From IMG/VR virus record IMGVR_UViG_3300046804_004793, positions 1-47,633 of that record: 47,633 nt of DNA. One strand, written 5' to 3'. This document shows positions 20,885 through 27,236 of this stretch, piece by piece. The position numbers and the translations under genes are program-made. The notes under the pieces were generated by a model, which worked only from the letters and a program-made list of their open reading frames with translations, was not told the origin of the DNA and ran no database searches. The stretch's first letter is position 1. Each line of letters begins with the position of its first letter. The stretch is from a virus.

Positions 20885-21639
20885 ACGTAGTGATCTTTGG
20901 AAAAGGTAAAGTCGGTATGGCAACAGACTTGACCCTCAAAACAAATGCCGATTTTCATGACCCCTATAAGGGGTTAGTTGTAACGGATTTCTCAAAGTAT
21001 GATACAGCAATTATTTGTGTGTCTTCTCTTGTTGATGGGCCATACGATCATCAGGCTATCACGGACTGTCTACAAACATTAAGTGCGGCCGCGTTTACAG
21101 GAACAATTGCAATTAGATGTACAGTTTCGCCGGTATTCCTTCGAGCGTGGAAAATTCAATATCCTGCACTAAACATTATTCATTTCCCCGAGTTTATGAA
21201 ACAAGGAGACGATGTTTATTTGGATAAGCCTTGGATTCTTGTTCTCGGTGGCGATCGTCGTTTGACTGTTCCCTTTGGAAAGTGGTTAGTGGATAATGGA
21301 TATGGACACGAGGAGATGTGGCACTTCTGTACGCTTGAGGAAAGTGCACTTATCAAATTGCATCAGAATGCAGGCCTTGCGTTGAAGGTGGTATATGCAA
21401 ACATTATGTACGAAATGTGTCAACAATACGGAGCTGATTATGAAATTGTCAGAAAAGGCGTCGCTGCTGATGTTCGTGTTGGGCCAGGTCACTTACAGGT
21501 TCCTGGCGAACATGGCTTTGGTTTTGCTGGTCATTGCTTGCCTAAAGATATGAGATGTTTGGATACTGTTGCTTACAACAGAGGTTTCTGGCATAAGATA
21601 ATGGCTGTTAATGATGAATTAAGGAAGAAGAATGTCTGA
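20881..21639 (+). CDS. Minimal UDP-glucose/GDP-mannose dehydrogenase-like protein
   Basis: Nucleotide-sugar dehydrogenase-like protein of 252 residues, against roughly 390-450 in cellular enzymes. It has a reduced NAD-binding domain (VVIFGKGKVG) and the HFPEFMKQGD segment matching the family's PEF motif. The central helical domain carries catalytic Lys159 and Asn163 (ALIKLHQNAG), and the active-site segment is AGHCLPKD (Cys219, Lys222, Asp223). The C-terminal UDP-sugar-binding Rossmann domain is absent. The catalytic residues are retained, so it may be an active, reduced oxidoreductase, but the substrate is unclear. It sits between deformylase and QueE and overlaps both genes by a few bases. 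Confidence 0.75.
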   Translation: MNVVIFGKGKVGMATDLTLKTNADFHDPYKGLVVTDFSKYDTAIICVSSLVDGPYDHQAITDCLQTLSAAAFTGTIAIRCTVSPVFLRAWKIQYPALNIIHFPEFMKQGDDVYLDKPWILVLGGDRRLTVPFGKWLVDNGYGHEEMWHFCTLEESALIKLHQNAGLALKVVYANIMYEMCQQYGADYEIVRKGVAADVRVGPGHLQVPGEHGFGFAGHCLPKDMRCLDTVAYNRGFWHKIMAVNDELRKKNV

Positions 21640-22543
21640 TAAAAAAATTGCGTATAGTGAAATATTTCACTCGATTCAAGGAGAGGGTCATTATACGGGT
21701 CGGCCAACTGCTTGGTTAAGATTTTTTCTTTGTAATCTTCAGTGTGATGGTTTTGGGCAGAAGGATCCAACAGATCCTTCTACCTACATTCTACCCTATA
21801 AAGAAATTAAAGTAGACGATATTAAAAGACTTGAGGATTTGCCTGTATGGAAATATGGATGCGATTCTTCTTATTCATGGTCGGCTAAATTTAAGCACCT
21901 TCAACACAAGCATACAGCTCAAGAAATCTGTAATAGGATTCGTCAGTCAATGTATCATCCGACTAATCCCGAGGGCCGTTTTAATAAACACGATGGTACT
22001 ATGCAACATATGTGTTTCACAGGCGGTGAACCGTTGATGAAGCACGCGCAAATGGCTGCCATTGATATTATCGATCAGTTTGCGACGGAGGGTGACTTTC
22101 CTTTGTATATGACATGGGAAACAAATGGTACGCAACCTTTACAGAGTGAGTTTGCAGATTACTTTAGTGAGTATCCTGGAGAGGTGTTTTTTTCCGTATC
22201 GCCTAAGTTATGGAGAACGTCTGGTGAAAAGCCGGAAGATGCAATCAAACCTGAAATCGTAAAAACATATGAAAACCTTTCACGATATGGTCAATTAAAA
22301 TTTGTTGTGAATGGTACACAAGAATCCTGGGACGAGCTAGAATCCACAGTAGCTCTGTTCCGCGATGCAGGCGTGACATATCCTGTTTGGATTATGGGTG
22401 TTGGTGCAACGCTCGAAGCTCAAAAAGGAACCGAAGCTGGTTATATTGGGGAAGCGCATATTGCTACAGAAGCATTTAAGCGCGGTTATAACTATTCTTC
22501 ACGTGTGCATGTGCACATTTGGGGAAACACTATGGGAACATAA
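21632..22543 (+). CDS. queE: 7-carboxy-7-deazaguanine synthase QueE, phage-type radical SAM
   Basis: QueE-like radical SAM enzyme of 303 residues that converts 6-carboxytetrahydropterin to 7-carboxy-7-deazaguanine. Typical features: EIFHSIQGEG (residues 10-19), TGGEP (130-134) and VSPKLW. The iron-sulfur cysteines are Cys34, Cys38 and Cys77, i.e. CNLQC followed 38 residues later by GCDSSYSW. The usual compact CX3CX2C is therefore split by an insertion. It overlaps the upstream gene by eight bases and is followed by queD. Together with folE, queD and dpdA downstream it points to DNA 7-deazaguanine modification. Confidence 0.9.
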   Translation: MSDKKIAYSEIFHSIQGEGHYTGRPTAWLRFFLCNLQCDGFGQKDPTDPSTYILPYKEIKVDDIKRLEDLPVWKYGCDSSYSWSAKFKHLQHKHTAQEICNRIRQSMYHPTNPEGRFNKHDGTMQHMCFTGGEPLMKHAQMAAIDIIDQFATEGDFPLYMTWETNGTQPLQSEFADYFSEYPGEVFFSVSPKLWRTSGEKPEDAIKPEIVKTYENLSRYGQLKFVVNGTQESWDELESTVALFRDAGVTYPVWIMGVGATLEAQKGTEAGYIGEAHIATEAFKRGYNYSSRVHVHIWGNTMGT

Positions 22544-22545
22544 CA

Positions 22546-23100
22546 ATGTCATGGGATCTGTTTATGGAAAATAAAGATGACAACACTGTAACAACTTGGC
22601 GATCTGCTCGTCAATACAAATACGTTTCGACAAAAGAATATCACGACTCTTTTCCTTGCGCATATCGTCAATGGAGAGCAGATAGCCATTGTAACCTAAT
22701 TCATGGGTATAGCTTCTCGATGAAGTTTTATTTTGGTACAGATGACTTGGATGTGCGCAATTGGGCCGCTGATTATGGTGGGCTTAAAGAGCTGAAAAAT
22801 GTTCTCGAGAGCCAGTTTGATCATACACTTCTCGTTGCTCAAGATGATCCGGAGATCGAAATTTATAAAGAGCTAGAACGTCGAAAGCTAGCGAAGCTAA
22901 CGATTCTTCCAAAACTTGGATGTGAGGGGCTCGCTGATCAACTCTACAAGTATGTTAACGGCGTTTATATTCCTGATTATTGGGGTCCTGGAGAAGCTGA
23001 TAGACTTTGGTGCTTCCGCGTCGAGGTTCGTGAAACACAAAGCAATATGGCTTTTCGTGAGGGACACCGTGAATGGAATGAAAATTTATTTGAGGATTAG
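22546..23100 (+). CDS. queD: QueD-like 6-carboxytetrahydropterin synthase with altered metal site
   Basis: T-fold (PTPS/QueD) protein of 184 residues, longer than the roughly 120-residue bacterial QueD. The catalytic Cys49 and following His53 are in SHCNLIHGYSF. The residues matching the other two zinc His are Tyr40 (FPCAYRQW) and Tyr55 (HGY). FDHTLL (92-97), GCEGLADQL and the terminal VRETQSNMAF (Glu163) match the rest of the family. Its expected role is making 6-carboxytetrahydropterin for QueE. The ATG at 22546, two bases after queE, is preferred to an upstream in-frame TTG. Confidence 0.8.
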   Translation: MSWDLFMENKDDNTVTTWRSARQYKYVSTKEYHDSFPCAYRQWRADSHCNLIHGYSFSMKFYFGTDDLDVRNWAADYGGLKELKNVLESQFDHTLLVAQDDPEIEIYKELERRKLAKLTILPKLGCEGLADQLYKYVNGVYIPDYWGPGEADRLWCFRVEVRETQSNMAFREGHREWNENLFED

Positions 23101-23105
23101 AATCT

Positions 23106-24116
23106 ATGAAAGTGACTAAAATAAACGGATTTGGTAGTTTTGGTCATTACGTTGACGATGTAGACTTTATTAACATGAGCGATGAAGAGGTCAAGGCTAT
23201 ACATGACCTCCATCTTCAAGGTCTAGTGACCGTCTTTCGTAATGTTAATTTACCCATTGAAATGTATAGAGCATGGGCTGAGCGTGTAGGTAACATACGT
23301 TACAATGGAACAACTATCCTTTTCAAAAAATATAATGTCCATTCAATGTTGGATTTGTACAAATTGTACAAACGTGGCAAACTAGATGCAGAGGATGCTT
23401 ACCAAGTTGAAACACGGGAACATACAATTGAAAGAACAAAGACGGGCGACTTATATCGCATTAGTGCAGAGCAAGATGACAAAGGAAATTACAAAGGATC
23501 TTTTGGTGTAGGTGATGTTGGGTGGCATTCTAACGAGGGAAGTATTATTAACTTCACGCCTGGTGCTTGTTTACTTGGTGTAAAGGAAATGCGTGATAGT
23601 GCAACCGGGTTTGCTCAAACTGTTGACTTTTACAACTCTTTACCTGATAGTATCAGGTCAGAGTTCGATGACATGGTGGTTGTGTATAAATTTCAACCAG
23701 GTGCAATTAACAAGTTAGAGTTAGAAGATCCAAAGTTTCAGCTTCGCATTAAACAAAACTTCTGTCCTGTAGATGGAGCTGAAGTACCGCTTGTTATTAC
23801 AAGTCCTGGCGGGTTAAAAGGACTCCATTACCCTAAACATAATATGTGGACAATTAAAGGGCTAACGGAAGCACAGAGTAAAGATGTATTCGATCTAATT
23901 GATCGCTCCGTTCTTGTCAAGGAAATGGTGTTTGATCATTGGTACCAGCAAGATAATGATCTTGTTTTGTTTGACAATGCAGTCACACTCCATAGAAGGG
24001 TAGGAAGTAGGCCAGGTCGTTTAGGATACCGTTTACAATACGATTATAAGTTTGTAGAAAACTATTGTCCATATAGCCAACCAGAATATAGAGAAAGATA
24101 TTTCAATGCCTTTTAA
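23106..24116 (+). CDS. TauD/TfdA-like 2-oxoglutarate/Fe(II) oxygenase, variant iron site
   Basis: TauD-type dioxygenase-like protein of 336 residues. The N-terminus (LHLQGLVTVFRNVNLP, MYRAWAERVGNI) and the GVGDVGWHSNEGS motif fit the family. The C-terminal LFDNAVTLHRRVGSRPG motif, with distal His296 and a later Arg, also fits. The proximal motif reads His141-Ser-Asn143 where TauD has His-X-Asp, so one iron ligand is substituted. The gene lies inside the deazaguanine operon, five bases after queD. It may modify a base, a small molecule or a protein. The substrate is unknown, and activity is uncertain because of the Asn. Confidence 0.75.
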   Translation: MKVTKINGFGSFGHYVDDVDFINMSDEEVKAIHDLHLQGLVTVFRNVNLPIEMYRAWAERVGNIRYNGTTILFKKYNVHSMLDLYKLYKRGKLDAEDAYQVETREHTIERTKTGDLYRISAEQDDKGNYKGSFGVGDVGWHSNEGSIINFTPGACLLGVKEMRDSATGFAQTVDFYNSLPDSIRSEFDDMVVVYKFQPGAINKLELEDPKFQLRIKQNFCPVDGAEVPLVITSPGGLKGLHYPKHNMWTIKGLTEAQSKDVFDLIDRSVLVKEMVFDHWYQQDNDLVLFDNAVTLHRRVGSRPGRLGYRLQYDYKFVENYCPYSQPEYRERYFNAF

Positions 24117-24316: not shown

Positions 24317-25024
24317 ATGTTTAATGACCGTGAAGTAGAAGGTGAATATCTTTCTACGGTAATTCGTAATCGTTTGAAGGCCGCTAATAAACGTTTTTGG
24401 GCAAGCGATAATATATCTGAGTTTGTTTCGGAAGAAGAATTGCCAAGATTAGTTACAGAACTAACTGATAAGTTTCAGAGTGTTCTAAGCTCTCTTGTCA
24501 TTGATACGGATAACGATCCTAATTCACACGACACGGCAAAGCGTCTTGCAAAGATGTACGTCTACGAGTTGATGGCGGGACGGTATGAACCGCGACCAAC
24601 AGCTACAGCATTTCCTAACGAAGGACCTGAGAGATTTGAAGGTATGCTTGTGGTTCGTGCAGAACTTCTTTCCATGTGCTCACATCACCACCAGCCAGTA
24701 AAAGGTACAGCAATTATAGGTATTATTCCTACTGGTGAGGTGATTGGTCTATCAAAGTATGCACGTATTGCACAATGGTGTGCTCGTCGTGGTACCTTGC
24801 AAGAAGATCTCGCCAATCGGATTGCAAAAGAAATTATGACAGCAACCGATACGGAAAATTGTGCTGTGTATATTCAAGCAACTCATGGCTGCATGGAAAA
24901 CCGCGGTGTTATGGCTCACTCAAGTCTTACACAGACGTGTGTCGTTCATGGATTGTTTCATAACGATTCTGTCAAGTCTGAATTTATGTCGCATGTAAAA
25001 ATTCAAATGATGCATAATGGCTAA
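24317..25024 (+). CDS. folE: GTP cyclohydrolase I (FolE)
   Basis: GTP cyclohydrolase I of 235 residues, which makes 7,8-dihydroneopterin triphosphate from GTP, the first step towards 7-deazaguanines (and folate). The motifs SMCSHHHQPVKG (Cys121, His124), GLSKYARIAQWCARRGTLQEDL and THGCMENRG (Cys192) carry the zinc ligands and active-site residues. The conserved C-terminal SSLTQTCVVHGLF follows. AAAGGA lies just upstream of the ATG. With QueD and QueE upstream and DpdA downstream it most likely feeds DNA modification. Confidence 0.93.
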   Translation: MFNDREVEGEYLSTVIRNRLKAANKRFWASDNISEFVSEEELPRLVTELTDKFQSVLSSLVIDTDNDPNSHDTAKRLAKMYVYELMAGRYEPRPTATAFPNEGPERFEGMLVVRAELLSMCSHHHQPVKGTAIIGIIPTGEVIGLSKYARIAQWCARRGTLQEDLANRIAKEIMTATDTENCAVYIQATHGCMENRGVMAHSSLTQTCVVHGLFHNDSVKSEFMSHVKIQMMHNG

Positions 25025-25388
25025 AGTTTATTTTTGCAAATTTGTAGATAAGAAAACACATAAAGTATTCTATAAATTTGGACACACAACAAAAAACGAT
25101 GTCCTTGATCGTTTTGATCCAAATTATGATCAACGTTATACAGAGTTTGATATTACGTGCGTTGCAAGCATACGTGGCGAACTCAGCTGGTGTATTCAGA
25201 TTGAAGAGATGTTCAAAGCAATGTACCCCAAGAACCTGTGGCTAGAAGAATTTCTAGGTGATCAGCGTACTTGGGATCAATTATCTGGTATTACGGAGAT
25301 CGTTGATCTGGCACCATGGGATTACGAACGCGTTCGTAATGGTTTTTACAAACTGAAGCAAATGTGTTCCATTAGATATATTGAGTAA
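25017..25388 (+). CDS. Possible GIY-YIG-type (T5orf172-like) protein
   Basis: Protein of 123 residues whose N-terminal 50 residues (VYFCKFVDKKTHKVFYKFGHTTKNDVLDRF) resemble the reduced GIY-YIG nuclease fold of the T5orf172/Mug113 group. In that fold a Tyr-containing strand is followed by K-[IF]-G-x-T and a catalytic Arg. The glutamate expected later could be in IEEMFKAMYP. No DNA-binding module is apparent. It overlaps folE by eight bases. It could act on DNA in the modification operon or be a small repair-type nuclease. The assignment is by motif pattern only. Confidence 0.45.
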   Translation: MAKVYFCKFVDKKTHKVFYKFGHTTKNDVLDRFDPNYDQRYTEFDITCVASIRGELSWCIQIEEMFKAMYPKNLWLEEFLGDQRTWDQLSGITEIVDLAPWDYERVRNGFYKLKQMCSIRYIE

Positions 25389-25995: not shown

Positions 25996-26376
25996 ATGGA
26001 AAACAAGAGTTTTATTTGGGTGACTTTTAGAAAAGAAGGTATTCACCGGTATCCTGCTGCAGCTGTGGATCCTAAACTAAAGACTGGTGATTGGTTGGAT
26101 GTTAGCTTCCTAGCTGACCCTCATCGTCATATCTTTCACTTCCGTGTTGAGATGGAAGTGTTTCATGATGACAGGGACGTCGAATTTATTCAAGCAAAGC
26201 GTGTGATGGAATCATTGTACGATGATGGCACCATTAATATTCATCATATGTCTTGTGAGATGCTTGCACGTGATCTACACAAGCAGTGTATTGCTCGCTG
26301 GCCAAATCGCGACTATGTTATTGAAGTCTCCGAAGATGGAGAAAACGGTTGCAGAATTTATTTTCCGAGGGGCTGA
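25996..26376 (+). CDS. Second QueD-like T-fold protein lacking the catalytic Cys
   Basis: Protein of 126 residues that aligns by eye along its length with bacterial QueD. GIHRYP (His17) matches the first zinc His, and DPHRHIFHFRVEMEV (His43, His45) matches the HGH zinc pair. VEFIQAKRVM matches the family's Asp-Phe-x-x-Leu-Lys helix. MSCEMLARDL matches the PTSE helix, and EVSEDGENGCRIYF matches the terminal KETxxxGCIY. The QueD catalytic Cys (four residues before HGH) is replaced by a hydrophobic residue. It may be a divergent pterin or deazaguanine enzyme, possibly a CDG decarboxylase. The ATG is chosen with AAAAGG upstream. It ends two bases before dpdA. Confidence 0.5.
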   Translation: MENKSFIWVTFRKEGIHRYPAAAVDPKLKTGDWLDVSFLADPHRHIFHFRVEMEVFHDDRDVEFIQAKRVMESLYDDGTINIHHMSCEMLARDLHKQCIARWPNRDYVIEVSEDGENGCRIYFPRG

Positions 26377-26378
26377 TC

Positions 26379-27236
26379 TTGATTAACTTTTGTCACATTT
26401 CTCCGACCGCTTATCTCAATAAGTATACAAAGAGTAATGGAGCACATTTGCTCTTAGCACACCTTGTTGAAGAAGATCCAGAGTATCGTGAGTATTATGC
26501 TAACCTCGATGATGGCAAATACAAGATTATGGATAATAGTGCGTTTGAGATGTTTAAGCTTGGGCGGCCCATGTATGATTCGTCTAAGTTGATTGAAATG
26601 GGAAGAGCATGCAACGCAAATTGCATTGTACTTTCTGATTATCCTAAACAACCATCTCGCGTCACCGTTAATGCAGCAAAGAGGTTGATTCCGGAGTTTA
26701 AAGATCAGGGGTTCGATACCTTCTTTGTTCCGCAAAGTGAACTTGGTGATATGTCTGATCTTGTCAACTGCATTGAGTGGGCTCTTCACAACAGTGAAAT
26801 CGATTTGATTGGATTGTCTATTCTAGCTGCTCCCATTGCTTGTGGTGTAGATGAAACAACGTTTGAAGGTGGTAAGCGTAGTGATGCCTATAAGATGCAG
26901 CGCTATCTGTCGCGTTTGGCTGTGTTTCGTGAAATGGAGCGTCGTAATCTACTTAACGACAAGTCGTGGAATCGATTCCATTGTTTAGGCATGGTTGATG
27001 GTCCTAAAGAAATTGATTTGCTCCGTGAATATCATGGGCATATTTTCTCATGGGATTCAAGTGCGGCTGTGTGGGCTGGTATTAATGGTATTACGTTTGA
27101 TAACTCACCTACTGGTTTACAGAACGGCAAATTCGAAAAGGAAGTAGATTTTGAATATGAAGGTGAACATAATCCTGGTATTGTTTATCGCAATATTGAT
27201 GTGATCGATAAAATGGTTTCGAGAGGAAAGTCTTGA
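26379..27236 (+). CDS. dpdA: DpdA-type DNA guanine transglycosylase, TTG start
   Basis: Phage tRNA-guanine-transglycosylase homologue of 285 residues that exchanges guanine in DNA for a 7-deazaguanine base. TGT-fold signatures in order: KIMDNSAFEM (Asp52), CIVLSDYPKQ (Asp87), FFVPQSELGD, LIGLSILAAP, then FHCLGMVDGPKEIDLL. IFSWDSSAAVWAG follows, with Asp226 in the place of a catalytic or binding Asp. The C-terminal zinc domain of tRNA TGT is missing, as is usual for phage DpdA. The TTG at 26379 is preferred because GAGGGG lies six bases upstream and it begins just after the preceding stop. It ends in TTGA with the kinase gene. Confidence 0.8.
   Translation: MINFCHISPTAYLNKYTKSNGAHLLLAHLVEEDPEYREYYANLDDGKYKIMDNSAFEMFKLGRPMYDSSKLIEMGRACNANCIVLSDYPKQPSRVTVNAAKRLIPEFKDQGFDTFFVPQSELGDMSDLVNCIEWALHNSEIDLIGLSILAAPIACGVDETTFEGGKRSDAYKMQRYLSRLAVFREMERRNLLNDKSWNRFHCLGMVDGPKEIDLLREYHGHIFSWDSSAAVWAGINGITFDNSPTGLQNGKFEKEVDFEYEGEHNPGIVYRNIDVIDKMVSRGKS

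Follow-up and report, generated by a model that had tools for sequence, protein, structure and literature searches.

A small QueD-like protein encoded in a phage 7-deazaguanine cluster is probably a decarboxylase that supplies 7-deazaguanine from 7-carboxy-7-deazaguanine (CDG) to the neighbouring DpdA, as suggested by sequence comparison and structure modelling. The window, i.e. the whole stretch of DNA analysed, is the IMG/VR virus record IMGVR_UViG_3300046804_004793 (47,633 nt, 47.6 kb), whose ORFs include what we take from their sequences to be T4-like replication genes (sliding clamp and clamp loader). The cluster was arranged in the order queE, queD, TauD-like dioxygenase gene, short ORF, folE, two genes, QueD-like gene and DpdA-type gene (Table 1). 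The TauD-family dioxygenase gene (23106-24116), between queD and folE, was present in only two of the 200 surveyed loci. A small protein annotated without function (25017-25388) recurs immediately 5' of the QueD-like gene in about 25 related loci.

Table 1. Positions of the cluster genes, key residues and associated families (window positions unless a locus is named).
Feature	Position	Strand	Evidence or remark
QueE (7-carboxy-7-deazaguanine synthase), radical SAM	21632-22543	+	phrog_2076, E 4e-51
Canonical QueD (first T-fold protein, triad kept)	22519-23100	+	PF01242, E 2.8e-13; phrog_2389, E 1.5e-35
FolE, GTP cyclohydrolase I	24317-25024	+	PF01227, E 1.3e-38
QueD-like T-fold protein, putative CDG decarboxylase, DpdL-like, 126 aa	25996-26376	+	
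Putative Zn ligands H17; H43; H45	26044-26046; 26122-26124; 26128-26130	+	alignment to QueD
R60	26173-26175	+	invariant residue
S86-C87-E88	26251-26259	+	sits at the QueD PTSE helix
Anchor Glu E113	26332-26334	+	equivalent of E. coli Glu110
DpdA-type DNA transglycosylase, TTG start, predicted TGT fold	26379-27236	+	
GT-B glycosyltransferase (examples)	L085:8831-9913; L003:4963-5988; L001:6261-7469		further loci
Conserved family of ~185 aa	L131:9136-9684		and 14 other representative loci

The QueD-like ORF (25996-26373, followed by TGA at 26374-26376) starts with ATG after an AGGTGA ribosome site, and the reading frame and residues of its 126-residue product agreed with the original prediction. 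The two-base gap claimed to separate it from dpdA was also found: the conserved DpdA start (M-I-N-F-C-H) is the TTG at 26379. A dN/dS value of 0.11 was obtained from one pair, the window gene and a 95%-identical relative, most other pairs being too diverged for the method. Together with the related stretches in IMG/VR, which number at least 593, this value indicated that the gene is under purifying selection and is no chance ORF. The sole profile matched by the window protein was phrog_17812, a phage family without functional annotation. Pfam and NCBIfam searches with the window protein, as well as PDB searches with a single-sequence or profile query, returned no significant relative; weak matches to copper amine oxidase and bacterioferritin were taken to be chance hits.

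The gene was detected by tblastn in 26 phage records, including Pseudomonas phages of the PA5oct kind, Acidovorax phage ACP17, Cellulophaga phages phiST, phi13:1 and phi19:2, and phages of Rhizobium, Vibrio, Aeromonas and Xanthomonas. Bacterial and archaeal assemblies contained 28 loci with the gene; one Amycolatopsis copy lay in a prophage-like region, and several other loci carried a phage-type cluster. That the Amycolatopsis homologues form a bacterial gene cluster was rejected at least for one locus (L196), in which the gene adjoins terminase, portal and capsid genes. A MazG pyrophosphohydrolase domain is fused to the QueD-like gene in one locus (L190:7998-8891), and a MazG gene overlaps it in phage phiST (L002:5424-6345); a nucleotide-pool role is possible.

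We predicted the structure of the QueD-like protein with AlphaFold, using a 67-row alignment. The model was a confident T-fold (pLDDT 93.3). Foldseek ranked PTPS (2dj6, E 5.0e-6) and E. coli QueD (4ntk, E 5.4e-6) first in the PDB (TM 0.70/0.73), with a probability of 1.00 to PTPS/QueD; the T-fold assignment, with QueD/PTPS as the closest members, was thus confirmed at the level of the model. In profile-profile comparison, a QueD profile with the E. coli protein as its lead sequence matched the family with 94.3% probability, versus at most 1% for the reversed alignment and 60 column shuffles, confirming by sequence the claimed homology and hence a QueD paralogue, descended from QueD. Pfam PTPS (PF01242) did not match the window protein at E<1, and a fused relative scored 15.0 against it, below the cut-off of 22.4. 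The best viral structural match in BFVD was A0A6J5LEZ6, a 459-aa protein named 'alcohol dehydrogenase, N-terminal', which contains a domain 45% identical to the QueD-like protein.

Alignment placed His16, His31 and His33 of E. coli QueD at H17, H43 and H45, Glu110 at E113, and the PTSE motif at S86-C87-E88. H43 and H45 were present in 199 of 199 family rows, H17 in 198 (one gap) and E113 in 196. L39, R60, E63, F64, S86, C87 and E88 were invariant in the 199 rows, and R60, E63 and S86-C87-E88 are among the invariants that are new relative to QueD; a Cys at the C87 position also occurs in some phage QueDs. His17, His43-x-His45, the PTSE-like helix (as an SCE motif) and the terminal E113-D114...GCRIY were therefore all located where they had been read by eye. 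The catalytic Cys before HxH, described as lost, is indeed missing (residues 30-42 contain no Cys in 198 of 199 rows), but the loss goes further: neither Cys27 nor the Asp70-His71 loop of E. coli QueD has a counterpart, the loop aligning to a gap. On this alignment, the whole Cys-Asp-His triad of QueD is lost. The canonical QueD of the window retains Cys, Asp-His and Glu, and its translation probably begins 3' of the TTG. Given the lost triad and the true QueD in the same cluster, we rejected the reading of the QueD-like protein as a second, redundant QueD.

queC was found in none of 158 IMG/VR loci containing the QueD-like gene, and the QueD-like gene in none of 84 IMG/VR queC loci; these loci are partly redundant, and the counts are not independent events. 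Both sets commonly contained queD, queE and folE. We also scanned with queE, which selects for neither gene: among 34 loci with 7 kb downstream, 29 had the QueD-like gene, five had queC, none had both and none had neither. When 20 records were searched whole with Pfam, 15 had no QueC match, and five gave partial, weak matches (best 37.8 bits, three above the Pfam cut-off), which may be other PP-loop proteins. Because of this strict exclusion, the best reading of the gene contents is that, at the CDG branch point, QueC is replaced by the QueD-like protein; the original prediction had likewise proposed an enzyme acting on CDG. Flavobacterium phage immuto offers a related contrast: its QueE and that of phiST share 76% identity, but genes annotated as QueF and formyltransferase lie in its cluster, and the QueD-like gene had no match within the stretch read.

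The Streptomyces homologues (L192:7971-8339, L193 and L198) adjoin QueD, with FolE also in L192 and L193; in L192, a FAD-binding oxidoreductase and an AraC regulator are encoded nearby. In these loci, queE was not found within the fetched flank of about 8 kb, and the anchor Glu is lost. This combination counts against the decarboxylase reading, and these homologues may have a different product or role. Like the QueD fold itself, their queD-folE context would fit an enzyme that acts earlier, on a pterin (CPH4 or dihydroneopterin triphosphate), for example as a second or regulatory QueD. However, such an enzyme would lack the QueD triad, a canonical QueD-family protein was present in 16 of the 20 records searched whole, and the exclusion of queC would be left unexplained, so that we consider a pterin substrate very improbable.

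Judged by its model and profile, the gene 3' of the QueD-like gene is a TGT-fold DpdA: the AlphaFold model (pLDDT 89.9) matched tRNA-guanine transglycosylase in Foldseek (E 3e-8), and the profile matched the annotated DpdA of phage immuto (E 1.8e-21). Of the IMG/VR loci, 64 extended 5 kb or more to both sides, and folE, queD or queE was nearby in 62 of these. All 158 loci carried either the window-type DpdA (57) or a GT-B glycosyltransferase and/or a TGT-motif protein (101), and never both types. The two architectures did not overlap in the 60 non-redundant representatives or in the full set of 158 loci, and the partner profiles were built from these same loci, so the counts describe the loci and not an outside definition. 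The functional tie to dpdA that had been proposed is strong and extends to two transglycosylase-type partner sets, and the homologues occurred almost only with dpdA-type and queE/queD/folE genes. Neither outcome named beforehand as refuting, a model other than a T-fold or homologues mainly apart from dpdA or queE, was observed.

DpdA followed 15-62 nt 3' of the matched domain in 53 of the 57 window-type loci; phage phiST also has the window-type architecture. With the gene directly 5' of dpdA in most of these loci and the QueD triad lost, the protein might be a non-catalytic partner of DpdA, either as a degenerate QueD by which the base is carried or presented, or as an accessory subunit that completes the transglycosylase. 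We regard this as quite unlikely, since the Zn histidines and the anchor Glu are almost invariant, other loci pair the gene with a different transglycosylase-like protein, and the exclusion with queC suggests an enzyme-like role. The tree, moreover, showed several partner changes (nine by parsimony, at least two forced by well-supported branches), which would be expected if the gene encodes an enzyme producing a free base.

Among the representatives, 32 loci had the GT-B glycosyltransferase, which adjoined the QueD-like gene in 28 and occurred with the window-type DpdA in none. Pfam Glycos_transf_1 was matched by nine of 22 members (best E 8e-12), and the neighbouring protein (family C5) showed TGT-like motifs (LGDSGGFQ), with no confirming Pfam or PDB profile. 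On these two grounds, we abandoned the view of the adjacent 'glycosyltransferase' as a DpdA under a wrong name. A reverse scan with the TGT-motif protein gave 13 loci, 12 with the QueD-like gene and all 13 with the glycosyltransferase; a scan with one glycosyltransferase sequence gave no matches. The conserved ~185-aa family, which has no Pfam match, lies just 5' of the QueD-like gene in many glycosyltransferase-type loci.

For the window, we propose the following reaction. FolE, QueD and QueE, established as the enzymes leading to CDG (PMC6884629; PMC13329287), would provide the substrate. E113 of the QueD-like protein would hold CDG with its carboxylate near a zinc ion, putatively bound by the three histidines; CO2 would be removed and C7 protonated by a conserved acid, e.g. 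C87, E88 or H57, giving 7-deazaguanine, which DpdA would swap for guanine in the phage DNA. No further gene was common to most window-type loci, so the inserted base is probably the product of the QueD-like protein itself. With queC absent and no other commonly shared gene in these loci, decarboxylation would be the simplest reaction for a zinc T-fold that acts on CDG without a cofactor. Zn-dependent aromatic decarboxylases that protonate the ipso carbon provide a chemical precedent; we know of no T-fold decarboxylase.

The glycosyltransferase, paired with the QueD-like gene in over half of the loci, counts against the decarboxylase reading: plain 7-deazaguanine has no hydroxyl handle for a sugar, so plain decarboxylation leaves this architecture unexplained. 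The 101 of 158 loci with the GT-B glycosyltransferase and/or TGT-motif protein suggest that a substituted base is used there, and the QueD-like protein could act on CDG otherwise, for example by turning the carboxylate into a transferable or glycosylatable group, so that the decarboxylated base would not be the product. This is unlikely in our view, as the window-type loci share no other tailoring gene and neither an ATP nor an NADPH site is recognised in the small T-fold. Returning to decarboxylation, we suggest tentatively that the zinc T-fold decarboxylase might feed two DNA-insertion systems; in the larger one (TGT-motif protein and GT-B glycosyltransferase, e.g. in Pseudomonas phage PA5oct and Acidovorax phage ACP17), the inserted 7-deazaguanine might then be glycosylated, perhaps directly on the electron-rich C7. 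To our knowledge, glycosylated 7-deazaguanine has not been reported in phage DNA.

If the QueD-like protein is a CDG decarboxylase, a large unannotated phage family (phrog_17812) would gain a concrete reaction, and FolE, QueD, QueE, the QueD-like enzyme and DpdA would make up a very short pathway by which DNA acquires a modified guanine. The decarboxylase would use a fold not known for such chemistry and would be kin to the enzyme acting two steps earlier in the same pathway. Whether a phage has plain 7-deazaguanine or bases derived from preQ0 could then be predicted from its sequence, by the presence of the QueD-like gene or of queC, a distinction relevant to phage sequencing and to the evasion of restriction. 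The loci with the glycosyltransferase hint that cultured phages may modify their DNA in a further way.

The QueD-like protein shares with QueD (E. coli 4ntk, PF01242) the T-fold, the Zn His triad, the anchor Glu near the C-terminus and the SE/CE helix motif; unlike QueD, it lacks Cys27 and Asp70-His71, has the invariants R60, E63 and C87, and does not match Pfam PTPS. QueC, which converts CDG to preQ0, acts at the same branch point after QueE, but it is ATP-dependent, has an unrelated fold and is mutually exclusive with the QueD-like gene. QueF-Like (archaeosine synthase, 5jyx), a weaker structural match, is also a T-fold protein acting on a 7-deazaguanine base; in contrast, the title of its entry describes a covalent thioimide, formed via a catalytic Cys. 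In tubercidin biosynthesis, the UbiD-family protein TubF has been proposed to remove the C7 carboxyl from a CDG-derived compound (PMC6112128), the same chemical problem. TubF, however, belongs to a different protein family, likely uses prenylated FMN and is proposed to act after ribosylation. Lastly, Cui et al. in 2023 reportedly described phage DNA with 7-deazaguanine among its bases and predicted a CDG decarboxylase, 'DpdL'. The QueD-like family is probably DpdL, a likeness of predicted step and of context (folE, queD and queE with dpdA and without queC), the context of DpdL being deduced from its predicted role.
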